A DNA stretch of 27,302 bases, taken from the IMG/VR virus record IMGVR_UViG_3300043449_002391, positions 1 through 27,302 of that record, one strand, 5' to 3'. Positions 2,252 to 26,245 of the stretch are shown here, piece by piece. Within the stretch, counting starts at the first letter, position 1; every line of letters starts with the position of its first letter. The stretch is from a virus. Made by a program: the position numbers and the translations under genes. The notes under the pieces were generated by a model that saw only the letters and a program-made list of their open reading frames with translations, was not told where the DNA came from and ran no database searches.

Positions 2252-2494
2252 ATGGCAATACTCAAAGAAGAAATTATCGGCACAAAAATCATTAATGAAA
2301 TTCAGTCTAGTAACATTAAAAAAACTGAATATGATACTGAAACTAAAAATCTACTTGTTACATTCAATAACGGGGCAATTTATGAATACCAAGAAGTACC
2401 CCACCAATTGTATACTCAATTCAGAATGAGTGAATCACAAGGTAAATTTTTTAGTAGTAAAATCGCAAAAGCGTTTAAGTATAAAAAATTTTAA
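2252..2494 (+). CDS. KTSC domain protein
   Basis: An 80-aa protein whose residues about 18-78 match the KTSC fold family (PF13619): an SSNI start, a short strand pair with FNNGAIYEYQEVP, then a helix and GKFFSSKI near the end. KTSC domains occur alone or attached to other proteins in phages and bacteria; their molecular role is unclear, and a nucleic-acid or peptide-binding role has been suggested. It starts 20 bp from the divergent ClpC-like gene. The T/A-rich gap (2232-2251) holds only TATTTTTT, a poor match to the window's promoter-like 8-mer. There is no Shine-Dalgarno sequence, as elsewhere here. Confidence 0.8.
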   Translation: MAILKEEIIGTKIINEIQSSNIKKTEYDTETKNLLVTFNNGAIYEYQEVPHQLYTQFRMSESQGKFFSSKIAKAFKYKKF

Positions 2495-2524: not shown

Positions 2525-4717
2525 ATGAGTAATTTAAAAAGGATTTTATCAAGTTTTAAAGTTAGAGAAGAACTTAATCCAAAAGTTTGGACCAAAATTG
2601 ATGGTGAAGTTAAAATGAGACCTAACGTTAGACAGTCTCTATTAGATATCGCCAATGATTTCATTGAATTTTTAAAAGTAGATATTGTTGTGACAGATGT
2701 CATAATGACCGGCTCATTGGCTAACTTTAATTGGTCAAATTTTTCAGATATTGATTTACATATAGTTGCTGATTTTAGTCAGTTTAAGGAAGAACAGTTA
2801 GACTTGTATAAAGAACTTTTCACATTGAAAAAAACTTTATATAATGAAAAACACGATATAACTATCTATGGTTATGACGTGGAATTATACGTTCAGAATG
2901 AAACTGAAGCTCATTTTAGTAGTGGTGTATATTCGGTATTATTTGACGAGTGGTCTAACAAACCAAAAAAAGAAAATGTTGAAATAGACAAAGAGTTAAT
3001 CAAAACCAAGTCTGAAAAGTGGATGGAGATTATCGATGGTGTAATTGAAAACGCATCTGATGAGCCGTTTGAAAAAGCCAAAGAACTTATTAAAAAATAT
3101 AAAGACAAGTTAAAAAAATATAGGACTTGCGGTCTCGAAAAAAACGGGGAATACTCTGATGAAAATTTGGTTTTTAAAGTTTTAAGAAGAAACGGGTATA
3201 TTGAAAAACTACATAATTTTGCAGATAAATTAGTAGATAAGACATACACAATAAAAGAAGGTACCACAAGTATTGGAGGTCCTTTTAAAACGGATATTGA
3301 AAACGGTCCGTCAAATCACGGTAAAAGAGCGTTTGGTAATTGGCAATCAGATAATGCTTGGGATATTTTTGCACCTCCTGGTAGTGTTGTTAATTCATAT
3401 ACTGAAGGAAAAGTTACCAAAGTAAGAAATTCAAATAAAAGGTCTGGTAAAGTTTTTGGTACACAAGTATCGATTAAAGGTATAAATGGGTTTCCTGATA
3501 TTTTCTATACCCATTTGAAAAATGTTAAGATTAAACCTGGTGATGTTGTAAATCTCGGTGATTATATAGGGGAGGTTACTGAATGGTGTAAAGACGAATC
3601 ATGTACTGAAATGCATAGCGGAACACACGTACATCTTGGATTACCTAGAGGAGAACATTTAAGGGAATTGTTGAAAAATTCCGATAAAATATTTACAGGT
3701 TCTGAATCAAGTAATTATAGTGATTCACCAGAAGATGAAAAAAGAGAGGTGGAATCTTTAATACCTGAGGATGCGAAAGGTTTTATTGATGATTTAAAAA
3801 CATTATTAAATTCAAAAACCACTTTGACCAACATGAAAAAACTCGGTAAAACTATACCGTATGATAAAAATGTTGAGACCTTACAAACCGCATTACAAAT
3901 ATTGGGATTTTCTCTACCAACTTGGGGAGTAGATGGAAAATTTGGAAATGAAACTGAGCAAGCGGTTAAATCAGCCCAAGAAAAATTGGGTAAGGAACCC
4001 AATGGAGTTGCTGACCCTGAAATAATTAAATTAGTTGTATATAATGTCGCTGAAAACGTTTTAAAAAACAAAGATGTATTAAAAAAAATAAAAAAAACTA
4101 AAACACAAGAATTACCGGCCGACTCAGGAGAAAAAGAAAGTAATGATGTAACATCTACTACTGATAGAGAGTACGCCATTATAAGACCACAAGGATATAC
4201 AGGAAATAGAGTTCACGTTTTATTTGGTGGTGCTCATACATCAGGGTATTCAAAAAATAGCGCAAGACCTGACGCTATAAAAAAATATATAAATGTAATG
4301 ACACCATATGCTAACAATATTATCATAGTCGTTACACACCATATGAATACTTTGGGTAATGTAAGAGCCTACGTTAAAGAAAAATTTGGTGGTGAAGTTA
4401 CATCAATTGCCGGATTTTCACAAGGTGGTAAAGAAACTTGGGAGCACGCTGGTGATAGTACATTAAGTTTGGTCGGATTAATAGACCCGTCAACATATGC
4501 AACAGGAATATCTTTTGGTGCTAACACCATTCTATATTGTGACCCAAGAAATTGGGGAACAAGTGGATTTTATGGGCAAACAAGACGTAGATTAGAATGG
4601 TATTGTGAAAATAAAAATAGATACGGAGGAAAAGTTGTTTGTTTCAATCAGGGAGGTACACACATGAATTTCAAAATATTGAAATCATTTTATGAACAGT
4701 ATGGAAGTAAGATGTAA
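2525..4717 (+). CDS. Four-domain fusion: NTase-like / M23 / PG-binding / hydrolase
   Basis: A 730-aa protein from the ATG at 2525; a TTG two codons upstream is less likely. Domains in order: (1) residues ~55-125, nucleotidyltransferase-like, with GS (63-64), SDIDLH (74-79) and a later acidic DVELYV, the Pol-beta/MNT pattern; (2) ~250-375, M23/LytM metallopeptidase with NAWDIFAPPG, YTHL, KPGD and the zinc-binding HVH (368-370), but with Asp instead of His four residues before the first-motif Asp (280); (3) ~435-505, PG_binding_1-like repeat with GVDGKFGNETEQAVK; (4) ~548-730, alpha/beta hydrolase-like, with nucleophile elbow GFSQGG (Ser632), a candidate acid in LIDPS (Asp654) and GTHMNF (His713). 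No signal peptide. The middle part suggests peptidoglycan cleavage during entry or lysis; the roles of the two outer domains are unknown. It is monocistronic, with a weak AT-rich hairpin at its stop. Confidence 0.85.
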   Translation: MSNLKRILSSFKVREELNPKVWTKIDGEVKMRPNVRQSLLDIANDFIEFLKVDIVVTDVIMTGSLANFNWSNFSDIDLHIVADFSQFKEEQLDLYKELFTLKKTLYNEKHDITIYGYDVELYVQNETEAHFSSGVYSVLFDEWSNKPKKENVEIDKELIKTKSEKWMEIIDGVIENASDEPFEKAKELIKKYKDKLKKYRTCGLEKNGEYSDENLVFKVLRRNGYIEKLHNFADKLVDKTYTIKEGTTSIGGPFKTDIENGPSNHGKRAFGNWQSDNAWDIFAPPGSVVNSYTEGKVTKVRNSNKRSGKVFGTQVSIKGINGFPDIFYTHLKNVKIKPGDVVNLGDYIGEVTEWCKDESCTEMHSGTHVHLGLPRGEHLRELLKNSDKIFTGSESSNYSDSPEDEKREVESLIPEDAKGFIDDLKTLLNSKTTLTNMKKLGKTIPYDKNVETLQTALQILGFSLPTWGVDGKFGNETEQAVKSAQEKLGKEPNGVADPEIIKLVVYNVAENVLKNKDVLKKIKKTKTQELPADSGEKESNDVTSTTDREYAIIRPQGYTGNRVHVLFGGAHTSGYSKNSARPDAIKKYINVMTPYANNIIIVVTHHMNTLGNVRAYVKEKFGGEVTSIAGFSQGGKETWEHAGDSTLSLVGLIDPSTYATGISFGANTILYCDPRNWGTSGFYGQTRRRLEWYCENKNRYGGKVVCFNQGGTHMNFKILKSFYEQYGSKM

Positions 4718-4733
4718 TGTAAATTTTTACATT
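4716..4733 (+). terminator. Weak AT-rich hairpin after the fusion gene
   Basis: AATGTAAA (4716-4723) and TTTACATT (4726-4733) form a perfect inverted repeat beginning within the stop codon of the fusion gene. The stem has only two G-C pairs and no U-run, so it may be an inefficient terminator or simply an AT-rich palindrome. Confidence 0.3.
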
Positions 4734-4740
4734 TCTGATA

Positions 4741-4748
4741 TATTTATA
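4741..4748 (+). promoter_or_regulatory. Candidate late promoter TATTTATA
   Basis: Exact 8-mer in the context CTGATATATTTATATAA, 30 bases before the ATG at 4779. It would drive the run of genes at 4779-8757, which are tightly packed and end at the terminator at 8762. No -35 element is evident. Confidence 0.6.
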
Positions 4749-4778
4749 TAAAAATAATTTTCTACACAAAAAAACAAA

Positions 4779-6008
4779 ATGGGAAAACTTAAACCAGTTG
4801 GTAGTGAAAAACTACAAGGTATGGATAAAATTAATCGAATGATTGAAATATCTCGCTATAAAGAGAACATACCAACGCCAATTAATGAGGACACGTCTGT
4901 TGAATATAAGAAACTATTACCTGACGGTTACACTTATAGAATTGATAAAGAAAAAAACGGTTACGTAATCGTAAAAGGACTTAACGAATCGTCAATGGAT
5001 TACGTTGAGCCTATGAAAAATAGAAAATATTATTCATCATATTCTGCAGCCTTTAAGAGACTTAATTTAATTATTAAGGAAGTTAACCAATTAACAGGTA
5101 ACAATAAAAATGTTTCATTATTTACTGAAAGTGATGAAGATGTAAAATACTTTTTGAAAACATCTATGGATGTTACCGAACAAGCTCCACCGGCTCCCGC
5201 TCCGGCACCTGCACCAGCTCCCGCACCAGCTCCGGCACCTGAAGAAATGCCAGCAGAACCTGAAATGGAGGCGGCACCTGAAGAAATGCCGGCAGAACCT
5301 GAAATGGGTGATGAAGGTCAAGATGATGAAGTGGTGACATTTAAAACCATCCAAAAATTAACAGGAAAACTCGCTCAGAAAATTAGAACATTGGCGGCTG
5401 ATGAGGAAAACCCTATGTCATCTAAGGATATTAAATATGTAATTAATTCTGTGTTATCGGCCTTTGATTTAAATAATTTAGAGGAAGAAGATAGAGAAGA
5501 AATTATGGGTAAATTTGAGGGTGAGGAAATGCCATCGGATGAAATGGGAATGGAAGATATGGGTGATGAAGAAATGGGGGCCGAAGAAGCGCCAATTGAA
5601 GCACCTGAAGAAATGATGGAAATGGCTAACCAGTATGAGTCAGAAGCTCCTGAAAAACCAAGAGTACCTAAAATTAAGGGTCACGACATTGAAGACAAAC
5701 ACGCGGTTAAGGTTGAAGATATGATTGAAAGTTTATTCAGCGAATCTAAAGTTGACCAAATCTTAAAAAAATACTTCAAAGTGGATGAGCAAGAAAAAGT
5801 TATTACCGAACAAAAAAAGAGTATAAAAAAAGAAATGATTAAAAAAATTAATCAATTATCTGAGAATATTGAACAAGAGGTAATATCTCGTAAATTGATT
5901 AATAAGTTTGGTAATGCTAAACTTCTTGGTAGAAACAAGAAAAATGATTTAATATTTGAAATAAATGAATCAAAAATTAGAGTAACACCAAAAGGTGAAA
6001 TTCTATGA
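4779..6008 (+). CDS. Acidic protein with Pro-Ala linker, head-module associated
   Basis: A 409-aa protein I cannot assign to a known family. Residues 1-125 look folded. A long Ala-Pro dipeptide run follows (about 137-153, DNA near 5185-5240), then repeats of the type APEEMPAEPEM (about 153-176). A short folded segment (about 185-245) is followed by a Met/Glu/Asp-rich stretch (about 248-285) and a charged, probably coiled-coil C-terminus with ESKVDQILKKYFKVDEQE. Acidic low-complexity segments and a helical tail are common in prohead core proteins. Several [LIVF]xE sites that a gp21-like protease could cut are visible (LFTE/S, VTE/Q, FSE/S), so an internal-core or head role is possible but unproven. 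It overlaps the next gene by ATGA (6005-6008), indicating translational coupling. Confidence 0.85.
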   Translation: MGKLKPVGSEKLQGMDKINRMIEISRYKENIPTPINEDTSVEYKKLLPDGYTYRIDKEKNGYVIVKGLNESSMDYVEPMKNRKYYSSYSAAFKRLNLIIKEVNQLTGNNKNVSLFTESDEDVKYFLKTSMDVTEQAPPAPAPAPAPAPAPAPAPEEMPAEPEMEAAPEEMPAEPEMGDEGQDDEVVTFKTIQKLTGKLAQKIRTLAADEENPMSSKDIKYVINSVLSAFDLNNLEEEDREEIMGKFEGEEMPSDEMGMEDMGDEEMGAEEAPIEAPEEMMEMANQYESEAPEKPRVPKIKGHDIEDKHAVKVEDMIESLFSESKVDQILKKYFKVDEQEKVITEQKKSIKKEMIKKINQLSENIEQEVISRKLINKFGNAKLLGRNKKNDLIFEINESKIRVTPKGEIL

Positions 6009-6415
6009 GTTATTTGATTTATGTTAATGAATTAGGTCCAAACTATAAGGGAGACAATATATACGAATTTATTTTCTCAGATAGTTTGGAAAATGTTTGG
6101 GGTGATTCTTGGGAATCAAAACCATCTAACGGTTACCCATCACCACCAAACTTGGAATTTATAAAAAAAGTAGGAGTTCTAAAAAACGATACGATAAGTA
6201 TGACAGTTATTCAGAACTCCGATTTTTTTTCTATGATAGACGCAATTGATGGTGTAATTGCTTTATCTTGGGAAGATGAAAACGATGATATTAATTTTGA
6301 AACAAAAACAAGATTAGTTTTTCGTTATGGAGAAAAAGAGGAGATTGTTAAAAATAAACTTTATGAACGAGATTTAGTATTGGAGTTCGAAAAAAAAGTA
6401 GTTTATGAACATTGA
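6005..6415 (+). CDS. Conserved-looking phage protein, unknown function
   Basis: A 136-aa protein without a domain I can name. Features: an N-terminal strand-like MSYLIYVNELG, a conserved-looking ENVWGDSWESKP segment rich in Trp and Pro, and a C-terminal half of alternating hydrophobic and charged residues. No signal peptide or membrane segment. My impression is that similar short proteins occur in other T4-like phages, but I could not test this. It is coupled to both neighbours: its start overlaps the previous stop by four bases, and its stop lies 11 bases inside the next gene. The three genes are probably translated together. Confidence 0.82.
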   Translation: MSYLIYVNELGPNYKGDNIYEFIFSDSLENVWGDSWESKPSNGYPSPPNLEFIKKVGVLKNDTISMTVIQNSDFFSMIDAIDGVIALSWEDENDDINFETKTRLVFRYGEKEEIVKNKLYERDLVLEFEKKVVYEH

Positions 6416-7430
6416 AAAAAAGATATTAAGTTTGTTAGAACATGGACTAAATACGTCTACATTAGCCGACCTGAACGCTAAACAAATCGAGGCGTTGTAT
6501 GATAGATTGGCAGAATCTAAAAAAGAAAATAAAGAAGCGGTAACAAAAACATCAACAACCACAACATTTGACCCATCTAATGAGGCCGATAGGAAGACAG
6601 TGGAGGACATGTTAGGTAAAAAAGGAGTACCTGTTACAATTGACCCAGCAACTAAAAAAATAACAGTTGTGAGTGAAGATAACGAAGACGAAGACCAATT
6701 TACACAATCTTCAAAATTTGATTCAGGTGAAGACCCACAACAGGATGCACCACAAGATGAAGGACCATCTGACAATATGAATGCCGATGATGGTATGGGT
6801 ATGTTTGAAGAAAATTTAGATGAGAAATTTGAATCAAAAAAACAACAAAAATATTTTTTCTCAAAGTGTGGTGACGGTAAAACAAAAGAACAAAAGAAAT
6901 GGTGTAAAATGGCGAAAGAATTTGCAGATTCTACCAAAAATTTTAGTAAATTACCTGAGAAAAAAGATGAAACAAATGAAGAATTTTCATTTAAAGATTA
7001 TATGGGTAAAATTGGTAGTGTAATTGCCTCAAACACCGCTAAAAATGTTGGTAAAACATTAAAACCTACATTTGAAGGTAAATTAGAAGAAAGTATTATG
7101 AAAATGATTAATAAACATATCACCCCTAAAATGACTAAGAAAGATTTTATTAAAACAATAATGGAATCTGAAAAAGAAGTTGAAACTCCGGTTAAACCTG
7201 ATGTTGACACTCCTTCTATACCTAAACCTGCAACACCATATCAACCAAAACATAAACCAGCTCCAAAGGCAGGTGAAAAGGAAGTTGAAACACCGGTTAA
7301 ACCTGATGTTGATACTCCGTCAAGACCAAAACCGGCAACTCCTTACCAACCAAAACATAAACCAGCCCCAAAAGCGGAAGATATTCCACAATGGTTAACA
7401 TTTGACGCAATTGGTATTAATATCAAGTAA
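6405..7430 (+). CDS. Unknown phage protein with 35-residue tandem repeat
   Basis: A 341-aa protein of unknown function. It begins with a short helix, MNIEKKILSLLEHG, of a type seen at several N-termini in this window. The middle is acidic and Gln/Asp-rich (about 90-130), then comes a small basic segment with two cysteines (Cys155 and Cys167, KCGDGKTKEQKKWC). Residues 200-255 look helical. Residues 256-324 are two copies of a 34-residue Pro/Lys/Val unit at 35-residue period (VETPVKPDVDTPS...PKHKPAPKA), a probable extended linker, ahead of a short hydrophobic tail (QWLTFDAIGINI). It starts inside the previous gene and its stop is one base from the next ATG. A structural or adaptor role is possible; no direct evidence. 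Confidence 0.85.
   Translation: MNIEKKILSLLEHGLNTSTLADLNAKQIEALYDRLAESKKENKEAVTKTSTTTTFDPSNEADRKTVEDMLGKKGVPVTIDPATKKITVVSEDNEDEDQFTQSSKFDSGEDPQQDAPQDEGPSDNMNADDGMGMFEENLDEKFESKKQQKYFFSKCGDGKTKEQKKWCKMAKEFADSTKNFSKLPEKKDETNEEFSFKDYMGKIGSVIASNTAKNVGKTLKPTFEGKLEESIMKMINKHITPKMTKKDFIKTIMESEKEVETPVKPDVDTPSIPKPATPYQPKHKPAPKAGEKEVETPVKPDVDTPSRPKPATPYQPKHKPAPKAEDIPQWLTFDAIGINIK
7170..7376 (+). repeat. Two-copy 105-bp tandem repeat (coding)
   Basis: Unit 1 spans 7170-7274 and unit 2 starts at 7275. Over 34 aligned codons I count 13 synonymous differences and one amino-acid change (Ile272 versus Arg307). The duplication is therefore not recent, and the peptide sequence has been kept. Confidence 0.9.
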
Positions 7431-7431
7431 A

Positions 7432-8757
7432 ATGAGCTTTAATCCTAATATGAAAAACACTTTGAGTAAGAAAACTAAATTAGAGAAAAAATTAGTTTCG
7501 GAAGGTTTAACCAAAAAAGAAAACGATATTTTGAAAAATTTAAAGAAAAAACTTAATGAAGCTCCTATCGACTATGAAGGACCGGAGAGAATGGACCCAA
7601 ATATCGAAAGAAAGATTACAAGTAGAGAAACTCCGTTCTCCTCAAATCCGGCAATGCCAAAAGGAGACCGTGACTTTGTTGAATTAGTGTCATCAAAAAG
7701 ATTTAAAGATTCTGTTGAAACTGTTGGTCGGTATTTAGGAACTACCGCTCCTTTACAAGGTCGTAACCCTTTGATGCAACTTATGGGAATGGCCATGCAA
7801 TCTTTACAACAGGTAATGAGAATCGAGTTTCAAAACAAAGAATATCTCGAAAGATTGGCAGTTGATTTGGTTAAGAAAGAAATGGGTATTCCTGATGGGG
7901 CGATGCAATTTGACGCTAAACTTGTTTCAGGTCCTTTATCTTCGGCTGAGGGTATGAGAAGTACTCCACAAACACCAAGTAAAGAAGATGTTAAACAAGC
8001 GTTCAAACATCAAGAAGAATTGGAAGATTTTGCGGATGAGTTTGAAAAATTCAATCTTGAGAAGGCTAAAAGACGTTTCATCAACTCATTAATTCAGGGG
8101 GCATCTAAAAAAGGTCACTATATGTTTGAATTGGTTAGAGATGAGCTAAACCGTTTAGACCCTAATTTGGTTAATTTGTATGGTGTAAACCAATCACTTA
8201 TGGACCACCTTTATTGGGTAATGCCTGATATGGAAAGTATGGCGGCTAGTGGTGAAGGTCAAATGGGACAAACAAGTGTTGACCCTGAAACTGACCCCCC
8301 AACAGTTAAAGCAAGAGCGGCAACATTCCCATTACTTATTCACGAATTGATTAAGGGTATTTACGAAATATTTGGTACTCACGGTTTACCTGATGACCCA
8401 AGACAAGCCGAGATGATTATGGGTTCTGAGGATACTCTACCGGCTGAGATTTGGGATATGAGACTCGGACCGATATTTTGGGAGAAATTTACAGCGGCTT
8501 ATCCACTTGAATTATTTGACGAGGATAAGAAACACATCCAACATTATTTGTTTATGAGATTCTCAAAACTCGATGCTGAAGAATTCTTCAAAGTCGCCAA
8601 GTTGATAAACAGTGGTGACCCACAAGGAGAAAAAATAATCAAAAGAATGGTAGATGAGATTGTTTCTGATTTAAAGAAACAAGAATACGAACAAGAAGCT
8701 TCCAAATGGGAAGATGATGATATTGATGATGTTGACCTTAGTAGTTTAGGTCTCTAA
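7432..8757 (+). CDS. Unknown protein upstream of terminase
   Basis: A 441-aa protein of unknown function. I chose the ATG at 7432 because it follows the previous stop (7428-7430) directly; an in-frame TTG at 7402 would add ten residues from the overlap. The N-terminus is basic and polar (about 1-60). A helical, Met/Gln-rich segment follows (LMQLMGMAMQSLQQVM, about 108-123), then a mixed alpha-helical region and a strongly acidic C-terminus (WEDDDIDDVDLSSLGL). No signal peptide. It is the last gene of the 4779-8757 run and is followed by a strong terminator. Its place directly before the large terminase might suggest a small terminase or head protein, but the size is wrong for gp16 and I see no helix-turn-helix, so I do not assign it. 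Confidence 0.85.
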   Translation: MSFNPNMKNTLSKKTKLEKKLVSEGLTKKENDILKNLKKKLNEAPIDYEGPERMDPNIERKITSRETPFSSNPAMPKGDRDFVELVSSKRFKDSVETVGRYLGTTAPLQGRNPLMQLMGMAMQSLQQVMRIEFQNKEYLERLAVDLVKKEMGIPDGAMQFDAKLVSGPLSSAEGMRSTPQTPSKEDVKQAFKHQEELEDFADEFEKFNLEKAKRRFINSLIQGASKKGHYMFELVRDELNRLDPNLVNLYGVNQSLMDHLYWVMPDMESMAASGEGQMGQTSVDPETDPPTVKARAATFPLLIHELIKGIYEIFGTHGLPDDPRQAEMIMGSEDTLPAEIWDMRLGPIFWEKFTAAYPLELFDEDKKHIQHYLFMRFSKLDAEEFFKVAKLINSGDPQGEKIIKRMVDEIVSDLKKQEYEQEASKWEDDDIDDVDLSSLGL

Positions 8758-8810: not shown

Positions 8811-10571
8811 ATGACAAAAGAACAAGTGATGATTGAGTACGTGAAGTGTATGAAGGACACATCGTACGCCCTCAGAACATACTTACAAACTTATGACAAT
8901 ACAGTTTCAAAATATGTACCGTTAGAATTATTTCCTGACCAAGTATCTTTGCTCGAGGACTATGAAAACTATAACGAAAATATTGCGTTAAAGTACAGAC
9001 AGGCTGGTGTATCCACAGTGACCGCTGCTTGGGTATCTAAAAAACTAGCATTTGCCAAAAAAACAAAACCTGAAAAAATATTGATTATTGCCAATAAACT
9101 TGACACATCACAAGAAATGGCAAATAAAATTAGAGCGTTTATTGGCCAATGGCCCTCATGGGTTGGAATTGATTTTTCAACTGAAAAAGATTCTCAAAAA
9201 CATTATAAATTAAATAATGGTTGTGAAGTAAAGGCGGTTGCAACATCAAAAGACGCACTTCGTGGATTCACACCAACAATATTAATATTTGACGAGGCGG
9301 CGTTTATCGATGCTGATTCTGACTTTTGGGCGGCTTGTATGGCGTCCTTATCTACGGGTGGTAAAGTGATTGTGGTTTCAACACCTAACGGGTATGACCC
9401 AATCTATTATGAAATTTATGACCAAGCGTTAAGAAATATGAATGACTTCAAAATTTCAGAGATGTATTGGTTTAGAGACCCAAGATATACCAGAGATTTA
9501 TATCTTGTTAAGACAAAGGATATTATTCATTATTTGTTAAACAAAGAAGAATATGGTCAGGATGATATTATTAGTTGGGAGGGCATCCCGTTTGAAAATA
9601 GGAATTACGAAGAACTTAAATTAGTTATGGACACGGGTTATAAACCTTGTTCGGCATGGTTTGAGGGTATGGTTAAGAAATTAAAATACGACAAACGTAA
9701 AGTTTCTCAGGAGTTGGAGTGTAACTTTTTGGGGTCAGGTGATAACGTATTTGACTCAAATTTATTACAAAGAGTTAGAGAAAATCATATCCGAGAACCC
9801 CAAAATAAAATGATGGGAAATGCTCTATGGATTTGGAAAGAACCAGTGATTGGTCACAAATATGTTATGGGGGTTGACGTTAGTCGTGGAGATAGTGAGG
9901 ATTATAGTTCGTTTCAAATTATTGATTTTGATACACGAGAACAAGTTGCCGAGTTTGTAGGAAAATTACCTCCTGATACAATGGCCGATGTTTGTTACAA
10001 ATGGGCAAATATGTATTCTTGTTTTGTTGTGATAGATATCACTGGTGGTATGGGAGTATCTACGGCAAGAAAATTACAAGAGATGAATTTTAAAAACTTG
10101 TATGTTGATGGTGTGGATACCGCAAACAAATGGAAGTGGGACCCGAAGGCTGCTGAAAAAATACCTGGTATTAATTTTAACAACAAACGAGTTCAGATTA
10201 TTGCATCGTTTGAGGAAGCAATGAGACACGATTTTAAAATATACAGTAATCGTTTGTTTAATGAGATGAATACGTTTGTTTATATAAACGGACGACCTGA
10301 CCACCAAAAAGGTCATCACGATGACTTAATTATGTCAATTGCTATGGCTTGTTATGTTGCCGAATCATCATTCTCACAACTGACAAAGGTTACAGAACAA
10401 ACAAAGGCGATGTTGGAATCTTGGTCTGTTAGTAATAATGATAATGTTGGGGCTCAAATCGCATTTAATCCTGTAATACCAAATTATACAGATAGGTCTA
10501 AACAATTTAATGGTAATAATCTAACCAAAGATGATTATATGAAATATGGTTGGTTATTTGGGAGTAGATAA
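8811..10571 (+). CDS. Terminase large subunit (T4 gp17-like)
   Basis: A 586-aa DNA-packaging motor that pumps DNA into the prohead and cuts the concatemer. The ATPase half shows the terminase variant Walker A RQAGVST (63-69), Walker B ILIFDEA (157-163) and coupling motif VVSTPNG (188-194). The RNase H-like nuclease half shows three acidic centres: GVDVS (Asp356), VVIDITGG (Asp409) and KGHHDDLIMS (Asp504/505). Length is close to T4 gp17 (610 aa). The neighbours are a terminator and promoter-like motif upstream and the portal gene 65 bp downstream. In T4 the tail sheath and tube genes lie between terminase and portal; here they do not. No small-terminase gene was recognised nearby. Confidence 0.96.
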   Translation: MTKEQVMIEYVKCMKDTSYALRTYLQTYDNTVSKYVPLELFPDQVSLLEDYENYNENIALKYRQAGVSTVTAAWVSKKLAFAKKTKPEKILIIANKLDTSQEMANKIRAFIGQWPSWVGIDFSTEKDSQKHYKLNNGCEVKAVATSKDALRGFTPTILIFDEAAFIDADSDFWAACMASLSTGGKVIVVSTPNGYDPIYYEIYDQALRNMNDFKISEMYWFRDPRYTRDLYLVKTKDIIHYLLNKEEYGQDDIISWEGIPFENRNYEELKLVMDTGYKPCSAWFEGMVKKLKYDKRKVSQELECNFLGSGDNVFDSNLLQRVRENHIREPQNKMMGNALWIWKEPVIGHKYVMGVDVSRGDSEDYSSFQIIDFDTREQVAEFVGKLPPDTMADVCYKWANMYSCFVVIDITGGMGVSTARKLQEMNFKNLYVDGVDTANKWKWDPKAAEKIPGINFNNKRVQIIASFEEAMRHDFKIYSNRLFNEMNTFVYINGRPDHQKGHHDDLIMSIAMACYVAESSFSQLTKVTEQTKAMLESWSVSNNDNVGAQIAFNPVIPNYTDRSKQFNGNNLTKDDYMKYGWLFGSR

Positions 10572-13955: not shown

Positions 13956-14681
13956 ATGAATATGGAAGTTTTAAAACCAGGACAATCAGGAAAAGGTATT
14001 TTAATCGAATACGATGCAGGATATCTATCCCCAACTGAAAAACGTAATTCAGATTTAATACAAGAGTCTAAAGGAATGTTAGACCACTCAAAACCATTTG
14101 AGTTCTACGCTGTTTTGCAAAAATACAATACCCCAAACAGAAACGGAAGAATATACCCTGAAAAAGTATTAAAAAGAGAAGCCGACAATTATAAAAAAAT
14201 GATTAGTAAGGGTATTGCGTTATCTGAACTTAATCACCCTGAATCATCATTAGTTGACTTGGATAGAGTTTCTCACTCAATTAGTGATATATGGTGGGAG
14301 GGCCCTGTTTTAATGGGTAAATTAAAACTATTAACTTCACCAGGTTTTCACGAAAGAGGAATTGTTTCTACAAAGGGAGACCAAGCGGCAAATCTTTTGA
14401 GACAAGGAGTGACACTTGGTATATCATCTCGTGGTGTTGGGTCATTAAAAAAGATTGGCGAACAAAACGAAGTACAAGATGATTTTGAATTAATTTGTTT
14501 TGACCTTGTATGGTCACCATCAACTCCTGGCGCTTATCTTTTTACAGAGCCAGACGATAGATTTAAGTTTGAGGAAAACTTGGATGAGGAGAAAAAAATG
14601 AAAGCCGAGAGAGAATTTGGTGGGTCTCCTGATAAATCGCTTGACTTAATGAAAAAATTAAACGATTATTTGGGTTACTAA
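13956..14681 (+). CDS. Prohead core protease (T4 gp21-like)
   Basis: A 241-aa serine protease that matures the prohead by cutting scaffold and capsid proteins, and probably itself. Matching the gp21 (S80-type) pattern: NRNGRIYPEKVLKRE (61-75), a catalytic His in SELNHPESS (His94), the acidic VDLDRVSH segment (100-107), GPVLMGKLKLL strands, and the nucleophile segment LGISSRGVGS with Ser157 or Ser158. The C-terminal part is charged (EENLDEEKKMKAERE). Start: MNMEV has two ATGs, at 13956 and 13962. The order portal - small protein - protease - scaffold - capsid is that of T4, apart from the insertions noted. Substrate sites of the expected type can be seen in the capsid protein. Confidence 0.94.
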   Translation: MNMEVLKPGQSGKGILIEYDAGYLSPTEKRNSDLIQESKGMLDHSKPFEFYAVLQKYNTPNRNGRIYPEKVLKREADNYKKMISKGIALSELNHPESSLVDLDRVSHSISDIWWEGPVLMGKLKLLTSPGFHERGIVSTKGDQAANLLRQGVTLGISSRGVGSLKKIGEQNEVQDDFELICFDLVWSPSTPGAYLFTEPDDRFKFEENLDEEKKMKAEREFGGSPDKSLDLMKKLNDYLGY

Positions 14682-17564: not shown

Positions 17565-19406
17565 ATGGGAGCATTATTAGAATCAGGTCTTGTTGGTAAC
17601 ATTGGTCTTAAGCACCTTAAAGTTATCAAAGAAGATACTATTAACAAATGGGACAAATTAGGGTTCCTTGAAGGCCTTCGTGGTCACCTAAAAGAAAATG
17701 TGGCTCAGTTATATGAAAACCAAGCATCACATTTGATTAACGAAGCAACTTCTGACGGTTCTTCAGGTTCTTTTGAAACTGTTGTATTCCCAATCGTTAG
17801 ACGTGTATTCTCTAAGTTACTTGCTAATGACATTGTATCTGTACAAGCTATGAACTTACCAATCGGTAAATTGTTCTACTTCGTGCCAAAGATTCAAGGT
17901 TACAATGGTGGTACTGGTGGTTCAGGTGCCTTTGACCAAAATTCAGGTGAACACTATGCACCTGTAGGTTCTCCAGGTAACTATCCTGGTGACCCTAATT
18001 CAGGCTATACTACTGGTAATGGTACTTACAATGGTACTTACGCTAAAAATCTTTATGATTTATTCTATGAAGGTACTGAACCTGGATTGAGTCCTGCAGG
18101 TCTTTTTGATTATTCAAAAGGTCGTTGGTCTGCGATTACTGCTAACACAACTGTTGTTTCTTGGCAAAATGGTGCTTTAGCCGCCACTACTGGAACTTCA
18201 GGTAACGTTAGAAAAGTTATCATATCTCTTTGTGGTTTTAACGATTTAGGTTATGGTAAATTAATGGGACCTGATGGTAGTGAAATGGATACAGAATCAT
18301 TCTTATCAAACTTGATTGTTTATACAGGGGCCGGATTAGTTGTTGCGGCCGGTAGTCCATGTTCAGTATCTACAGGACCTCTTCTTTATAGAGTTGTTAC
18401 ACAACAATATGGTAGAGGTATAGTTAACCCTAACTACAACTCAACTACAACAGCTTGGCCTGGTAGTAACGGTGGTCAATGGGACACTGTATGTTCGGTT
18501 GATGGTTGTATTTATCTTGAAGTTGACCTTTCATGTCCAGCATGTCCTACTTGTGGTAATGATACTTTAGATGGATACACAGGAACAACAATCACTTCTG
18601 CGACTTCAGGAACTTCGTTTAATGCTGCTTGGAGACGTTATGAAGAATTAGAATTTGAAGACAAGATTGGTGAAGTTTCTTTCGACCTTGAGTCGGTAAC
18701 AGTTTCTGTAACTGAAAGAAAGTTGAGAGCACAATGGTCACCAGAACTTGCTCAAGACGTTGCAGCATTCCACAATATTGACGCTGAGGCTGAATTGACA
18801 GCATTGTTGTCAGAACAAGTTGCGGCTGAAATTGACCGTGAAATTCTTCGTGACCTTCGTAAAGGCGCAGCTTGGAATTTACGTTGGGACTACAACGGAT
18901 GGAGAAGAATTGCTAACACAACTTCTTACACTCAGAAAGACTGGAACCAAACTTTGATTACCGCAATCAACCAATTGTCGGCTCAAATCCACAAGTCAAC
19001 ACTTCGTGGTGGAGCTAACTGGATTGTTGTATCATCTGAGGTTTCTGCAATCTTCGATGACTTAGAATACTTCCACGTTTCTAACGCGTCACCTGAGCAA
19101 GACCAATACAACATGGGTATTGAGAGAGTAGGTACTTTAGCTGGTCGTTACCAAGTTTATCGTGACCCTTACTTCCCATCAAACCAAGTATTGATTGGTC
19201 ACAAAGGTACATCGTTACTTGATACTGGTTACATTTACGCACCGTATGTACCACTTCAATTAACTCCAACTATGTACAATCCATTCAACTTCACACCTAT
19301 CAAAGGTATCATGACACGTTACGCTAAGAAGATGGTTAACAACCGTTTCTACGGACGTATCACAGTTGATGGTGTACGTACATTTGACTTACAAGAACTT
19401 AGATAA
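17565..19406 (+). CDS. Major capsid protein (T4 gp23-like)
   Basis: A 613-aa capsid protein of the HK97 fold. The C-terminal half is clearly gp23-like: LRAQWSPELAQDVAAFHNID (about 387-406), AEAELTALLSEQVAAEIDRE, GRYQVYRDPYF (527-537), YIYAPYVPLQLTP and FYGRITVDGVRTFDL near the end. The N-terminus resembles the gp23 propeptide and has a likely prohead-protease site, HLINE60/A61, close to T4's cut after Glu65. The protein is about 90 residues longer than T4 gp23 (521 aa); the excess lies in a Gly/Ser/Thr-rich region (about 110-350) with a cysteine group at 310, 315, 324, 327 and 330. The leader is A-rich with no Shine-Dalgarno sequence. Its codons look more regular than those of the hypothetical genes, as expected for a highly expressed gene. 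It shares a transcript with the scaffold gene. Confidence 0.96.
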   Translation: MGALLESGLVGNIGLKHLKVIKEDTINKWDKLGFLEGLRGHLKENVAQLYENQASHLINEATSDGSSGSFETVVFPIVRRVFSKLLANDIVSVQAMNLPIGKLFYFVPKIQGYNGGTGGSGAFDQNSGEHYAPVGSPGNYPGDPNSGYTTGNGTYNGTYAKNLYDLFYEGTEPGLSPAGLFDYSKGRWSAITANTTVVSWQNGALAATTGTSGNVRKVIISLCGFNDLGYGKLMGPDGSEMDTESFLSNLIVYTGAGLVVAAGSPCSVSTGPLLYRVVTQQYGRGIVNPNYNSTTTAWPGSNGGQWDTVCSVDGCIYLEVDLSCPACPTCGNDTLDGYTGTTITSATSGTSFNAAWRRYEELEFEDKIGEVSFDLESVTVSVTERKLRAQWSPELAQDVAAFHNIDAEAELTALLSEQVAAEIDREILRDLRKGAAWNLRWDYNGWRRIANTTSYTQKDWNQTLITAINQLSAQIHKSTLRGGANWIVVSSEVSAIFDDLEYFHVSNASPEQDQYNMGIERVGTLAGRYQVYRDPYFPSNQVLIGHKGTSLLDTGYIYAPYVPLQLTPTMYNPFNFTPIKGIMTRYAKKMVNNRFYGRITVDGVRTFDLQELR

Positions 19407-19622: not shown

Positions 19623-20414
19623 ATGAAAAAAATTATTCTATTTATTTTAACGATTATGGTGAGCATGTGTTCTTTTGCTCAACAATCTGTACAAGACACA
19701 ACTAAAACTGGCGGTTTATTTTTTAAACCCGCAAAAAAACAAAGTCCATTTACTAGCGAATTTGGAATTGCAACATCTAACTTATGGAGAGGGGTTGATG
19801 TTGGCAAACAACCCGTTATCAAAATGATTGCTGATTATCAACCTGTTGATTGGTTTACTTTAACTTCAGAGGCAAACGTAGTATACAATCAATTTAAAGA
19901 TGGCTATGGTAATACTATTAGAAACCAAGCAATGTTTAATATATATAACACATCTATTGGAGTTCAGGACTTATATTTCACTCAAAATACATTCCTACAG
20001 AGTGATACCTCATTTTTCCATTATGATAAAAAAACAACATCTCATTTTTTAGAAGCGGTTATTAAATACAAGGGAGATGCGAAAAGCAGAATTGACTTTT
20101 TGTCAAGTTATGTTTTTTTCCAAAACGAATCTTATAAAACAGGTGCATTATATTTTGAAGCTACTTATCATTTAGATTATAATGCGGATTTGTTTGTTGG
20201 GTATGTAACAGGAGAATCTCAAGCAAACTTCCAACAGAAAGGTGGGTTTACAAATGTTGGAGTTGTAGTTAAAAGAACCCTTCAGTTTTCTAAGACAACT
20301 GATGCAAATACAAGACTTACAATTATGGTTAATCCAATGTTTAGAACCGCAATTGTACCAAATTCAACAGTTGCTAATAGACCAGTAACCGCTAACTTAC
20401 AGATATTATTCTAA
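19623..20414 (+). CDS. Exported outer-membrane beta-barrel candidate
   Basis: A 263-aa protein with a typical signal peptide: KK, hydrophobic core 4-15, likely cut at SFA19/Q20. Cys16 does not sit in a good lipobox (Met before it), so it is probably not a lipoprotein. The mature part has alternating hydrophobic and polar residues in many short strands and ends LQILF, a C-terminal Phe typical of BAM-assembled barrels. SEFGIATSNLWRGVDVG near residues 45-61 resembles the start of the Gcw_chp/TIGR02001 barrel-like family. Inference: the product is placed in the host outer membrane or exposed at its surface, and could mask or remodel receptors, or act as a pore. It has its own promoter-like motif and terminator and begins a group of three exported proteins. 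A phage outer-membrane barrel would be uncommon. Confidence 0.8.
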   Translation: MKKIILFILTIMVSMCSFAQQSVQDTTKTGGLFFKPAKKQSPFTSEFGIATSNLWRGVDVGKQPVIKMIADYQPVDWFTLTSEANVVYNQFKDGYGNTIRNQAMFNIYNTSIGVQDLYFTQNTFLQSDTSFFHYDKKTTSHFLEAVIKYKGDAKSRIDFLSSYVFFQNESYKTGALYFEATYHLDYNADLFVGYVTGESQANFQQKGGFTNVGVVVKRTLQFSKTTDANTRLTIMVNPMFRTAIVPNSTVANRPVTANLQILF

Positions 20415-20433
20415 TATAAAAATAAAAAATATT

Positions 20434-20464
20434 AAAAGGAGGATGAAAATCCTCCTTTTTTTTT
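20434..20464 (+). terminator. Rho-independent terminator, GAAA loop
   Basis: AAAAGGAGGAT (20434-20444) pairs with ATCCTCCTTTT (20449-20459) around GAAA, followed by Ts to 20464. Ends the barrel-protein message. Confidence 0.93.
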
Positions 20465-20529
20465 CGACATACTTTGTTAAATAATCGATATAAAAACTTT
20501 AACAAACAAAATCCAATTAAATTATTAGA

Positions 20530-20537
20530 TATTTATA
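20530..20537 (+). promoter_or_regulatory. Candidate late promoter TATTTATA
   Basis: Exact 8-mer in TTAGATATTTATATATG, 15 bases before the nuclease ATG at 20553. It would serve both nuclease and subtilase genes, which are 22 bp apart with no motif between them. Confidence 0.65.
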
Positions 20538-20552
20538 TATGAATTATATGAT

Positions 20553-21137
20553 ATGAAGTTTATATTTTTTAAAATTTTTTTATTATTGTCTGTTTTATCA
20601 TTCGGGCAATTAAGAGATTCAATTTACATTAAAACAACAATTTTTGATATTGTTTATTCTGAAAAATTACAGCAACCAAAATGGATTGAATACTATGTTA
20701 AATGCTCTGATGGTAATATTTCTCGTAAGGGGTTAGATTTTTATGCTTGTGATTCGATTAAAACTTCCGACCATAAAGATTATGAAAATAATGTCTATGA
20801 CAAAGGTCATTTAGCCCCCGCTGCAGACTTCAACTGCAGTAAAGAATCCTTAAAATTAACATTTTCTTATTTAAATTGTGTTTTACAACATGAAAGATTA
20901 AATCGTGGTGTTTGGAGATTACTAGAATCTTATGAAAGAGAATTATCAAAAAGATATAATGTTGTTGTTGATATAAGAATGGTTTATAGTAAAAATTCAA
21001 TCATTTTACCAACAGGGGCCACAGTTCCTGATGCTTTTATAAAAACAATAAGATATGCAAATAAAGAAGAAATATATTATTTTAAAAACGGTATACCCGA
21101 ATATAATGATTTTAAAAAATATATTCGAGTTAAATAA
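20553..21137 (+). CDS. Secreted DNA/RNA non-specific endonuclease (NUC1 type)
   Basis: A 194-aa beta-beta-alpha-metal nuclease with a signal peptide (hydrophobic 3-17, likely cut at SFG18/Q19). The active-site segment is YDKGHLAPAADF with the general-base His86; the family usually has DRGH, here DKGH. The magnesium-binding Asn117 and the acidic Glu125 in RLNRGVWRLLE are spaced as in Serratia nuclease (His-Asn about 30, Asn-Glu 8), so the enzyme looks intact. The family cuts single- and double-stranded DNA and RNA. Export would put it in the periplasm or medium, away from the phage's own replicating DNA. Possible jobs are destroying DNA of competing phages during entry, clearing extracellular DNA after lysis, or nutrient recovery. 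It shares an operon with the subtilase. Confidence 0.9.
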   Translation: MKFIFFKIFLLLSVLSFGQLRDSIYIKTTIFDIVYSEKLQQPKWIEYYVKCSDGNISRKGLDFYACDSIKTSDHKDYENNVYDKGHLAPAADFNCSKESLKLTFSYLNCVLQHERLNRGVWRLLESYERELSKRYNVVVDIRMVYSKNSIILPTGATVPDAFIKTIRYANKEEIYYFKNGIPEYNDFKKYIRVK

Positions 21138-21159
21138 ATAAATTAATTAATCTTAAAAC

Positions 21160-23484
21160 ATGAAAAAAATCGTTCTATTACTCACATTTTGTCTATCCTT
21201 TATTTTTGGATACAGTCAATATGACCTATCCAAAAACATTGATAGACAAGTCATGGTGGTTCCCCAAAAAGGTATGGAATCACAAACTCAATCTTTTATT
21301 AAAGAAAACAACGCTCAGATTGTTGCAAATTTTGAGCAACTTGGATGGTATGTTGTATTACTACCTGAAAACTTAACTCAAGATTCATTTGTTAGGTCAT
21401 CTAAGGACCTACCATTTATTAAAGAGGTTTATAAAGACCAAAAGGTTGAAATGAAGTTGGACTATATTCCAAATGACGTTGAATTCAACCAATGTTGGCA
21501 TCTTAAACAATCTACGGATAAGGATATTGATGCTGATGAGGCTTGGGACTTGGTTCCGGCAAATAATCCAACAGTTAGTGTTGCAATGTTTGATGGAGGA
21601 CTTGATTTAACTATTCCTGATTTGGCTGGAAACACAACAAATCCATTTAACGCAGTTAACAGCACAACTAATATTCCTTATGTTAATTCTTTTGACAAAC
21701 ACGGAACAACTTGTTCAGGTACTATTGCCGCGGTTACAAATAATAGTATCGGTGTTAGTAGTGTTGGTAATAACAAAGTAAAGGTAATGCCTGTTAACAT
21801 TATGTCTCAGGTTTTTGACGGAGGTAGTTTCCAAACATCAGATGTGATTCAGATTAATGGTGTTAATGCCGCGATGGCTAATCCAACCTGTGTTGCAATT
21901 GCAATGTCATATGGTGGTTCATCGTATTCATCGGCATTAGACGCTGCTTTCCAATCGGCAAGAACAACGGCAAGGGGTGGTAAAGGTATGGTTGTAGTTG
22001 CATCGTCTGGTAATCAATATTCAGGAACTGCCGCTCAGTATCCTGCAAATTATAGTGGTGTTTGGGGTATTGGTGCAACATCACAAAGTGACTTTAAAGC
22101 AAGTTTTTCTAACTTTGGACAAATTTGTGATATATCCGCACCTGGCGTTTCAATTAGAACTGTCGATAGACCAGGAACTGCAGGATATAATTCGGGTGAC
22201 TACACCTCAATAAGTGGAACATCATTCTCTTGTCCGATATTTGCGGCTTCAGCGGCATTTTGTTTTTATAAGAATTGGGAATTAACTGATGACCAAGTGT
22301 TACAAATATTATCTCAAACCGCAGAAAAAGTTGGTGGGTATAGTTATACAAATAATCCAACTTGGCCATATTCTACAAGAAGTAATGAACTTGGTTATGG
22401 TAGAATTAATTTGAGAGATGCAATCAACTCAACACCAAATCCGGGAGGAGATGTACCACCTCCACCACCACCATCACAAATACATAATTTTGTAATTAAT
22501 ACTTTAACTATTAATCCAACATCGGTTCTTGCTAATGCTAGTATTACTATAACCGCAACAATTGCAACTCAAAATCCTTCATACCCTGCGGTTAATGTGA
22601 TGACTCAACATAGATTATCAACTAATACAACTTGGGGTGATGCTGATGATATTATTATTGGTACAACCAGTGGTACTCTTGGGGGTGGAGTTGCAACTGA
22701 TGTTGAAACTTTAACATATAATGTTGGAAATACCTCAGGGTTAAGATACATTATAAGTAGAGTAAACTATATGGGTTCAGTATCTGAGACCATATCCACA
22801 GATAATACAAAACAATCAAGTTTTACAATCACTCAACCGGCAGTTACAGGAGCGGATTTATCTTTAATTATAACTTCTCCATTGTCAGGGAGTATAACAG
22901 TTCCATCATCTCAAGCCGCAGTATCTTTCCAATGGAAAGTTACAAACACAGGTTCAGTTCCTATTACATCATTTACTTGGAGAAGAACTTGGGTTGATTG
23001 TTCAGGGTATACAAATCCATTAAGTCCCTGTGGTTCAGTGCTGACTTGGCCCACATCAACTTCTTGGCAAGGACCGTTATTACCGGGGCAATATATATTT
23101 TTACCTGGAGGAGGAACCCCAACAAACCCTATTGGTGCTTCTTGGAGTTCGTCCCAAGTTTGTTTTAGTTCAACAAGTTGTGCAATTCAACCTGGAGGTA
23201 CTAACATAATGAGAGTTACAATTCTAACTGTAAACGGAGGAACAGGTGATACTAATTTAAATAATAATCAAGTTGATTGTACGGTTAGTAGATTAACAAC
23301 CGCAACAAACAATGATGTTACATCAGATATTGATTATGTTGAGGTTAGACAATTTAGTAAACTGTATGAAAATCCTGTAAGATATAAGACTATGGAAGAA
23401 GCAATACTTGAAAAAGGACTTAATATAATCCACATCCATTACTCTGATGGAAGAATAGAAATTAAAAAGATTTCTATCAATTAA
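21160..23484 (+). CDS. Secreted subtilisin-like protease (S8) with Ig-like tail
   Basis: A 774-aa exported protease. Signal peptide 1-19 (cut before Gln20), then an inhibitor-type propeptide (about 28-100). The S8 catalytic domain (about 110-425) has Asp145 (VAMFDGG), His181 (DKHGTTCSGTIA), oxyanion Asn285 (VVVASSGNQ) and Ser355 (SISGTSFSCP); all four key residues are present. A proline linker (433-438) leads to two Ser/Thr-rich Ig- or CARDB-like regions (about 440-560 and 565-705). The last ~45 residues include YENPVR and a closing SDGRIEIKKISIN, which resemble a shortened type IX secretion sorting domain. Inference: displayed on or released from the host surface, where it may cut surface proteins, receptors or extracellular matrix. 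It ends before a bidirectional terminator. A phage gene of this kind was probably acquired from a Bacteroidota cell. Confidence 0.92.
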   Translation: MKKIVLLLTFCLSFIFGYSQYDLSKNIDRQVMVVPQKGMESQTQSFIKENNAQIVANFEQLGWYVVLLPENLTQDSFVRSSKDLPFIKEVYKDQKVEMKLDYIPNDVEFNQCWHLKQSTDKDIDADEAWDLVPANNPTVSVAMFDGGLDLTIPDLAGNTTNPFNAVNSTTNIPYVNSFDKHGTTCSGTIAAVTNNSIGVSSVGNNKVKVMPVNIMSQVFDGGSFQTSDVIQINGVNAAMANPTCVAIAMSYGGSSYSSALDAAFQSARTTARGGKGMVVVASSGNQYSGTAAQYPANYSGVWGIGATSQSDFKASFSNFGQICDISAPGVSIRTVDRPGTAGYNSGDYTSISGTSFSCPIFAASAAFCFYKNWELTDDQVLQILSQTAEKVGGYSYTNNPTWPYSTRSNELGYGRINLRDAINSTPNPGGDVPPPPPPSQIHNFVINTLTINPTSVLANASITITATIATQNPSYPAVNVMTQHRLSTNTTWGDADDIIIGTTSGTLGGGVATDVETLTYNVGNTSGLRYIISRVNYMGSVSETISTDNTKQSSFTITQPAVTGADLSLIITSPLSGSITVPSSQAAVSFQWKVTNTGSVPITSFTWRRTWVDCSGYTNPLSPCGSVLTWPTSTSWQGPLLPGQYIFLPGGGTPTNPIGASWSSSQVCFSSTSCAIQPGGTNIMRVTILTVNGGTGDTNLNNNQVDCTVSRLTTATNNDVTSDIDYVEVRQFSKLYENPVRYKTMEEAILEKGLNIIHIHYSDGRIEIKKISIN

Positions 23485-23805: not shown

Positions 23806-24519
23806 ATGTTAAGGGATACTATAAAAAAAATTTTACATGAAGCATCATCAGATTCAGGAGGTGCTGGGGCGTATATAAGTCCATTAGAACCGGGGTTACG
23901 TAAATTTAATAAAAATATATTATCTCCATTTATTGAAGAAGTATCCGAATACAATGATGCTATGTTAAATTATGATAGTTTAGATGGGTCAATGTCTGTT
24001 AGTAAATCAAAAGCAAAAACATTAGAAAAAAAAGCACAAAAAATGTCCAATTTAATTAAAAAAAATCCTGATTTGTTGGCTCAGGAAGATGAAGGAGGAT
24101 TACTTAATACACAACCACAAAAGATATCAGAGTGGGTTGAGATAAACGAGGAAACGATTTCAGAAGACCTTGCAGTATGGTTTGGTACCAAAAAGAAACC
24201 AAAAGGGAGCAGTCAACCAAAAGGTCCTTGGGTAAATATATGTAGAAAAAAAGAAGGGGGTGGTCATCCTCCTTGTGGGAGACCTGAAGCAGATTCAAAA
24301 GGATATCCTAAATGTAGAGCAGCAGGAGTGGCGGCTAAAATGACAGATTCACAAAAAAGAGCCGCTTGTGCTCAAAAAAGGAAGGCTGAAAAAAGTAATC
24401 CAAAGTCAGGTACAGGTAATTCTCCAACTATGGTTTCGTATAAACCAAAAAAAAAGACTCAAAATGAGTCTTTAGAACTTTTAATAAATAAGATACTTAA
24501 AGAAATTATTCAGAAGTAA
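23806..24519 (+). CDS. DUF5872-like basic protein
   Basis: A 237-aa protein. It begins MLRDTIKKILHEASSD, one of the short N-terminal helices ending in Leu-x-Glu seen in this window. Residues about 60-90 look coiled-coil. The part from about 125 to 210 is strongly basic: GPWVNICRKKEGGGHPPCGR, GYPKCRAAG, MTDSQKRAACAQKRKAE, ending SPTMV. This order of motifs resembles DUF5872, a family found in phages and large viruses, with cysteines that could bind zinc. Its function is unknown; nucleic-acid binding is a guess from charge. It ends with a helix ESLELLINKILKEIIQK. Its last 14 bases overlap the convergent gene's end, with no terminator between them. Confidence 0.82.
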   Translation: MLRDTIKKILHEASSDSGGAGAYISPLEPGLRKFNKNILSPFIEEVSEYNDAMLNYDSLDGSMSVSKSKAKTLEKKAQKMSNLIKKNPDLLAQEDEGGLLNTQPQKISEWVEINEETISEDLAVWFGTKKKPKGSSQPKGPWVNICRKKEGGGHPPCGRPEADSKGYPKCRAAGVAAKMTDSQKRAACAQKRKAEKSNPKSGTGNSPTMVSYKPKKKTQNESLELLINKILKEIIQK

Positions 24520-25768: not shown

Positions 25769-26245
25769 TTAACAATACGGTGGAGAACAACGTTTTTTAC
25801 CGTCGGCCCCTGGCATTCTACCTTTACACACTTGTACCGCATATCCATTGGCGTATGCTGATGGATATACTTTGAATTTCTTTTTGGCGGCAGATTTACC
25901 TCTAGCACACAATTTTGTACCAGCTTTTTTACGACCTTCCATCATAACCATTTCTTCTTCATCTGATTGGTCTTCTAAATCATCCTCATCAGTGGTTTCA
26001 TTCATTAAAAAATCAAATACTTGGTCCATATTATTCTTTGCTTCGGCAATATGGTCTTGTGCCCAATCGTGACCGTTATCTAAAATAGAATCAATTTCGT
26101 CTCTATTTTTACTTAACAATATATCACATTGTCTTCTCATTTGTTCTAAATTAGAGAAAAACATATATCTATCCGATGATTGTTCTTCTAAAACTCTTTT
26201 AACAATGTTACTTAATTCTGTTTCAGTTAATTTAATCTTTTTCAT
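25769..26245 (-). CDS. Cys-containing basic-tail protein
   Basis: A 158-aa protein that begins with MKKIKLTETELSNIVKRVLE, the clearest example of the N-terminal helix found repeatedly in this window. The middle is acidic (NETTDEDDLEDQSDEEEM, about 95-112). The C-terminal 45 residues are basic with four cysteines: GTKLCARGKSAAKKKF, VYPSAYANGYAVQVCKG, KKRCSPPYC. I have an impression of this tail as a recurring phage module but cannot name it. The combination of helix, acidic linker and basic Cys-rich end resembles the 23806-24519 protein. It follows the 26249-26632 gene by three bases, so the two are co-transcribed. Confidence 0.8.
   Translation of the reverse strand: MKKIKLTETELSNIVKRVLEEQSSDRYMFFSNLEQMRRQCDILLSKNRDEIDSILDNGHDWAQDHIAEAKNNMDQVFDFLMNETTDEDDLEDQSDEEEMVMMEGRKKAGTKLCARGKSAAKKKFKVYPSAYANGYAVQVCKGRMPGADGKKRCSPPYC

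Follow-up and report, generated by a model that had tools for sequence, protein, structure and literature searches.

What would bring a nucleotidyltransferase (NTase), a peptidoglycan peptidase, and an esterase-like hydrolase together in one phage protein? The question is raised by an open reading frame (ORF) of 730 codons in IMG/VR record IMGVR_UViG_3300043449_002391 (positions 1 to 27,302; this whole stretch of 27,302 nucleotides is called the window here). The window, part of a T4-like phage genome, encodes the portal gp20, the prohead protease gp21, and the major capsid protein gp23. A preliminary description, made from the letters alone, had read NTase-like, M23, peptidoglycan-binding, and alpha/beta hydrolase domains in this unbroken frame, and the ORF, the Pfam and PHROG matches, and the fold model bear it out. 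Beyond that description, we found a conserved head-operon gene in the NTase, a swappable attachment in the lysin part behind it, and a prohead-protease motif at the joint between them. On balance, we favor the view that the protein is the precursor of a head-packaged peptidoglycan hydrolase, which a gp21-type protease would cut at IKE245↓G246 (arrows mark predicted cuts). This view builds on the domains, the synteny, the repeated fusion, and the conservation of the site, from which we infer cleavage, packaging, ejection, and the enzyme activities. Six other IMG/VR contigs encode end-to-end counterparts (residues 1 to 730, 75 to 77% identity), so a chance frame is ruled out, and so is the danger named in the description, the joining of separate genes by assembly error. 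A literature search covering open-access papers found no published report of the present fusion.

Three disparate catalytic domains share the chain (Table 1). The first matches PHROG 36119 over residues 11 to 241 (E value, 1e-40) and scores 20.5 bits against the Pfam family NTP_transf_2 in the whole protein, where the cut-off is 21, and 21.7 bits as an isolated domain; the same model matches 11 of 16 members of the NTase family. The Pol-beta active-site pattern is present (GS, two aspartates, and E120 as the third acidic residue), with D75, D77, and E120 invariant across the 16 distant members. Matches to NTase-type Pfam models were limited to NTP_transf_2, Polbeta, MTPAP-like, and one SidM_N, with none to RlaP, the RNA-ligase-associated Pol-beta NTase family. 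In the fold search meant for the NTase half, the M23 half dominated the matches, so that the assignment rests on sequence; the domain appears to be a Pol-beta superfamily NTase and would be expected to transfer nucleotides. Of the roles suggested for it earlier, that of inactive scaffold is made unlikely, in terms of catalysis, by the invariant catalytic residues; a toxin or regulator role may still apply.

The M23 domain matches Pfam Peptidase_M23 at residues 277 to 373 (E value, 1.3e-9; 38.5 bits against a cut-off of 28.7) and aligns with LytM-like structures (Z score of 11.5 over 114 residues, 3.4 Å). In place of the zinc motif HxxxD it has DNAWD, while HxH is kept. The replacement of the first zinc ligand by aspartate, already seen in the preliminary description, is confirmed as D276 and is fixed in 44 of 44 distinct relatives, which also retain D280, H330, and HVH. 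The description had called the site altered or inactive; the alteration holds, but inactivity is doubtful because the change is fixed while the other metal and catalytic residues are invariant. With one ligand changed and all else invariant in 44 sequences, a degenerate, decaying M23 is unlikely, and conservation suggests that the D-ligand form is probably functional. The PG_binding_1 match (E value, 4.7e-12) also passes its Pfam cut-off. The last 190 residues match no Pfam family or PDB sequence, and their AlphaFold model (predicted local distance difference test [pLDDT], 83.8) is closest to CE1/feruloyl esterases, by Foldseek as well (8bf3; Z score of 14.0 over 170 residues, 3.3 Å, 17% identity). 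S632, D673/D654, and H713 are invariant in eight hydrolase sequences, geometry giving no choice between D673 and D654 as the catalytic acid. The model thus points to an alpha/beta hydrolase of carbohydrate-esterase-like fold and, putatively, of that activity. Pattern-seeded scans of genome_contigs, which are no proof of absence, turned up no bacterial counterpart of either the M23 or the hydrolase part, and the hydrolase was not found among phage isolates.

The odd domain order is explained by the place of the NTase gene in the head operon. Scanning IMG/VR with the NTase alignment gave at least 589 relatives, and in a large group of T4-like phages the operon reads KTSC-NTase-p409-...-TerL-gp20-gp21-gp23, the NTase usually being a stand-alone gene of about 245 amino acids. 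Among distinct relatives with enough flank, the upstream neighbor is KTSC in 42/42 fusions and 58/60 solo genes, and the downstream neighbor is p409, with TerL after it, in 42/42 and 65/65. As a gene of its own, the NTase is a conserved part of the head operon in this group. Isolates of other groups (cyanophages, Cr30, Maribacter, and huge phages) have the NTase without the KTSC-p409 synteny. The isolate TerL proteins nearest to that of the window are all less than 30% identical to it (Flavobacterium phage immuto, 27%); the host is probably a member of the Bacteroidota.

At this one locus, at least eight different peptidoglycan-hydrolase modules are attached to the NTase C terminus. With an NTase-only query, every long C-terminal extension in the KTSC-p409 slot was found to carry peptidoglycan hydrolases: M23, VanY, M15, GH19, glucosaminidase-like, GH108-like, or phage lysozyme (of these labels, only M23, PG_binding_1, GH19, and amidase come from Pfam, the others from recognized motifs and local sequence searches). 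The D-ligand M23 occurs alone, with PG_binding_1 and the same hydrolase as in the window, with PG_binding_1 and GH19, with a second, canonical M23, or with a glucosaminidase-like part. Other extensions are a canonical M23, VanY with PG_binding_1 and hydrolase (L193), PG_binding_1 with a glucosaminidase-like part (L210), M15 with PG_binding_1 and a GH108-like part (L238) or lysozyme (L271), VanY (L267), and PG_binding_1 with M23, lysozyme, and VanY (L270). Parsimony on the NTase tree requires at least eight changes between the fused and solo states, and the strongly supported branches alone force about three, which makes any count of independent fusions uncertain. In L104, a close relative, the parts are still separate: its solo NTase gene (3791-4534), which groups with the window clade (support, 94), is overlapped by a separate gene (4521-5558) with the leader MKKIIKLTELDLERIVKRVISE↓Q, PG_binding_1, and the same hydrolase at 89% identity, without M23. 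In L209 a solo NTase is also followed by a leader-bearing protein, and in G007 the syntenic NTase is solo, with a D-ligand M23-GH19 lysin about 25 kb away.

A general linkage of solo NTases with lysins was unsupported: in flanks of up to 4 to 5 kb, a lysin of the domain set appeared in Cr30 only, L104 and some contigs with an M23 gene a few kilobases off lying outside that count. In Caulobacter phage Cr30 (L071, 2877-4212), a GH19-like lytic-enzyme gene overlaps the NTase gene start by eight bases. Elsewhere, L063 encodes a polyprotein (5101-7494) in which M15-like, D-ligand M23, and amidase domains are separated by a repeated spacer of about 75 amino acids.

Counted over cluster representatives (90% clustering), the motif (L/I)xE↓(A/G/S) stands at the joint in 23 of 28 fused proteins and in none of 52 stand-alone NTases, in which K, Q, N, R, Y, or I comes after the glutamate, if there is one (Fisher P = 1e-15, a value that ignores shared ancestry). 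By distinct attachment, ten of which were counted by hand, the motif is found in 7/10, against 0/13 stand-alone NTases with glutamate at that place (Fisher P = 0.0005). In the NTase-M23 model, the sole internal stretch with a pLDDT below 50 is 243-245 (IKE). M23 proteins without the NTase have short unrelated leaders ending in LVE↓G, ITE↓G, ISE↓G, or INE↓A directly before the M23 domain. T4 gp21 cleaves after L/I-X-E (PMC9026906). The gp21 of the window is a Peptidase_S77 member (E value, 1.2e-24) and is also present in the records of 11 of 13 relatives; in the head-operon protein p451, two conserved sites lie at residues 22-25 and 41-44 of the aligned examples, with P2 variable. It is likely that the joint is a prohead-protease cutting site.

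Several points weigh against the precursor view. The LSLxE stretch, LSL(K/D)E, is in part how stand-alone NTases naturally end, which leaves the small P1' residue as the only novelty of the fusion, and 26% of the residues in the linker are small. The exact motif is missing in three of the ten attachment types (L231, L267, and L270), many fused rows share ancestry, and solo NTases have no conserved N-terminal site. Furthermore, the fused proteins lack the short leader that might direct them into the prohead. The same LSL(K/D)E ending would suit an ordinary endolysin or a tail-associated lysin that escapes cleavage and acts at lysis or from the tail, the NTase being a mere N-terminal domain. M23 plus PG_binding_1 is a common lysin layout, and M23 enzymes are known both at the tail tip and as endolysins (PMC9662197). 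However, the gene lies in the head operon and not among tail genes, the small P1' residue is confined to fusions, and in relative G001 an additional, leaderless canonical M23 gene could serve lysis; we regard an uncut lysin as unlikely, if a serious contender. The initial reading, a virion-associated or lysis enzyme that opens peptidoglycan and removes an ester-linked group, is partly supported overall: a virion-associated, wall-opening enzyme with an esterase part agrees with the domains, the fold, and the head-operon position.

Instead of a short N-terminal capsid-targeting leader of 10 to 20 amino acids, the window protein starts directly with the NTase; leaders are carried by the separate relatives L055, L057, and L104. 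The MKKIIKLTELDLERIVKRVISE leader class of L104 is present on many unrelated proteins in relatives' genomes, and the cleavage motif is about two to four times enriched within the first 12 to 18 residues of relatives' proteins. Used as a tblastn query, the leader found nothing in isolates, the 23-amino-acid query having little power. Clusters of small proteins with unrelated bodies and common N-terminal leaders (MKKIIRLTESDLxxLVKRIIxE and MKYLITESQL) occur in G001 (28-41 kb, L076-L077) and G007 (10-38 kb, L092-L093); these shared leaders are probable capsid-targeting-like signals. Two window proteins begin in the same style, MLRDTIKKILHE↓ASSD (23806-24519) and MKKIKLTETELSNIVKRVLEE↓QSS (25769-26245). 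In L067, a 57-amino-acid protein starting MKTFQDFLEES... (3798-3971) lies directly upstream of the cyanophage NTase; we take this start to resemble a T4 internal-protein leader. Lysin-like genes of G001 (96493-97786) and G007 (57647-58974) have a common C-terminal LxE...RIKxLM, like the end of the scaffold-like protein. As a signal it was set aside, being found in three G001 and two G007 proteins and at no internal position, too few for a claim.

The lysin joined to a head-operon NTase through a likely protease site suggests that the head takes up wall-cutting enzymes and that infection sets them free. In the favored scheme, the precursor would be made alongside the head proteins and join the prohead, with the NTase, a head-operon enzyme, occupying the N-terminal place of the relatives' short capsid-targeting-like leader. 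The phage's gp21-type protease would then cut at IKE245↓G246, parting the NTase from a wall degrader made of the D-ligand M23 endopeptidase, the peptidoglycan-binding domain, and the esterase, which would remain with the DNA in the head, exit with it at infection, and attack the wall at the entry site. Large propeptides are known: that of SPN3US gp81 has at least 161 residues, and the beta subunit of the 201phi2-1 virion RNA polymerase is cut at residue 275 (PMC5694885).

The position of the predicted cut between NTase and M23, with the NTase in the leader's place, could also mean that the NTase is an inhibitory pro-domain keeping the lysin latent until the protease acts, as with LytM, an M23 enzyme that is latent until its N-terminal pro-region is removed (PMC4594094). 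Inhibition cannot be what the NTase originally did, since solo NTases with invariant catalytic residues occur both in this operon and in cyanophages; the low predicted template modeling score of the NTase-M23 model (0.57) lends a fixed interface no support, and we find this explanation improbable. The invariant active site would also suit an effector carried in the virion to nucleotidylate a protein or RNA of the host, the lysin being linked for joint delivery. Injected multi-enzyme proteins of the polyvalent type are known (PMC5512222), and the NTase has a profile match to the adenylyltransferase DrrA. However, that match is weak (E value, 0.007), and in cyanophages and Cr30 the genes lie close to replication genes rather than virion genes, so NTase function may differ between groups; an effector deserves little credence.

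A wider form of the precursor scheme, which we put forward only tentatively, is that the NTase is a general carrier on whose C terminus phages of this group repeatedly mount different peptidoglycan hydrolases where a short capsid-targeting leader would otherwise stand, to be freed in the head by the prohead protease. The usual view is that contractile-tailed phages breach peptidoglycan by a tail-borne lysozyme. If the carrier idea holds, myophages would have, in addition to any tail lysozyme, a lysin payload that travels in the head, is ejected, and can be exchanged quickly, and a head-processed, head-stored lysin would be a second route through the wall. The single slot in the genome would then serve as a store of lysins that are interchangeable and combined by nature, directed against hosts that are probably Bacteroidota, the conserved, uncharacterized head-operon NTase would gain a testable setting, and a natural leader-based head-loading signal beyond T4 would be on offer.

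Table 1. Features of the window around the 730-amino-acid ORF and in the head operon
Feature	Position	Strand	Basis
KTSC-domain protein, conserved neighbor upstream of NTase gene	2252..2494	+	
Whole ORF, single open frame from ATG to stop, 730 aa: NTase - (I/L)xE site - M23 - PG_binding_1 - alpha/beta hydrolase	2525..4717	+	
Pol-beta-type NTase domain, residues 1-245 (G63-S64, D75, D77, E120), phrog_36119	2525..3259	+	Pfam/PHROG, conservation, model
Predicted prohead-protease site I243-K244-E245↓G246	3251..3262	+	
M23 (LytM-like) domain, residues 249-388; D276 for first zinc His; D280, H330, H368, H370 kept	3269..3688	+	
PG_binding_1 domain, residues 448-501	3866..4027	+	Pfam
Alpha/beta hydrolase, CE1/feruloyl-esterase-like fold, residues 541-730; S632 (GFSQGG), D673 or D654, H713	4145..4714	+	
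p409, conserved neighbor downstream	4779..6008	+	
p451, head-operon protein, two conserved (L/I/V/M)xE↓(A/G/S) sites	7432..8757	+	
TerL	8811-10571		
Prohead protease gp21 (Peptidase_S77), proposed processing enzyme	13956..14681	+	
Predicted INE↓A maturation site, residues 58-61 of the major capsid protein gp23	17736..17747	+	

Directly after the capsid gene, the window has three secreted-looking genes with signal-peptide-like starts (19623-23484), coding for an unknown protein, a DNA/RNA endonuclease, and a subtilase. In L225, L237, L256, L261, and L266, proteins with long Thr/Pro repeats (TPTPT/TVTPS) lie between the NTase and p409 and end in GGFxGLNS, as does the window protein at 26249-26632.

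Among known systems, the internal head proteins of T4 (IPI-III and Alt) carry capsid-targeting sequences and are processed by gp21. The window protein resembles them in that gp21 is encoded, an L/I-X-E motif lies at a domain border, the gene is in the head operon, and short N-terminal leaders with this motif at their end are found on the stand-alone relatives of the lysin parts. It differs in having a 245-amino-acid enzyme before the site and a peptidoglycan hydrolase as cargo, and we do not file it as a gp21-processed internal head protein because the short leader is missing. With the polyvalent proteins of phages and conjugative elements it shares several unrelated enzymes per chain, peptidoglycan-cutting parts, and, by our reading, probable delivery with DNA; unlike in those proteins, a phage lysin here has the NTase at its front and gp21 is the proposed cutting enzyme, and the polyvalent-protein survey of Iyer et al. 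(2017) has Pol-beta NTases only from conjugative elements (PMC5512222). The capsid-internal ejection protein of the cyanophage A4, a podophage (PDB 9k2v), is matched by sequence and by fold (Z score of 9.2) and likewise places an M23 domain in a head-internal, ejected protein, but it belongs to a podovirus ejectosome and the match covers the M23 part only. The stand-alone NTases of phrog_36119 (e.g., in Synechococcus phage DSL-LC02, Caulobacter phage Cr30, and Lak phages) are of the same family (30 to 45% identity), but have no attached lysin and, in cyanophages and Cr30, lie away from head genes. Finally, the M23 domain shares with LytM, lysostaphin, and StM23 the fold, the second zinc Asp, the catalytic His, and HxH, and is set apart from them by the aspartate at the first zinc ligand position in all 44 relatives.
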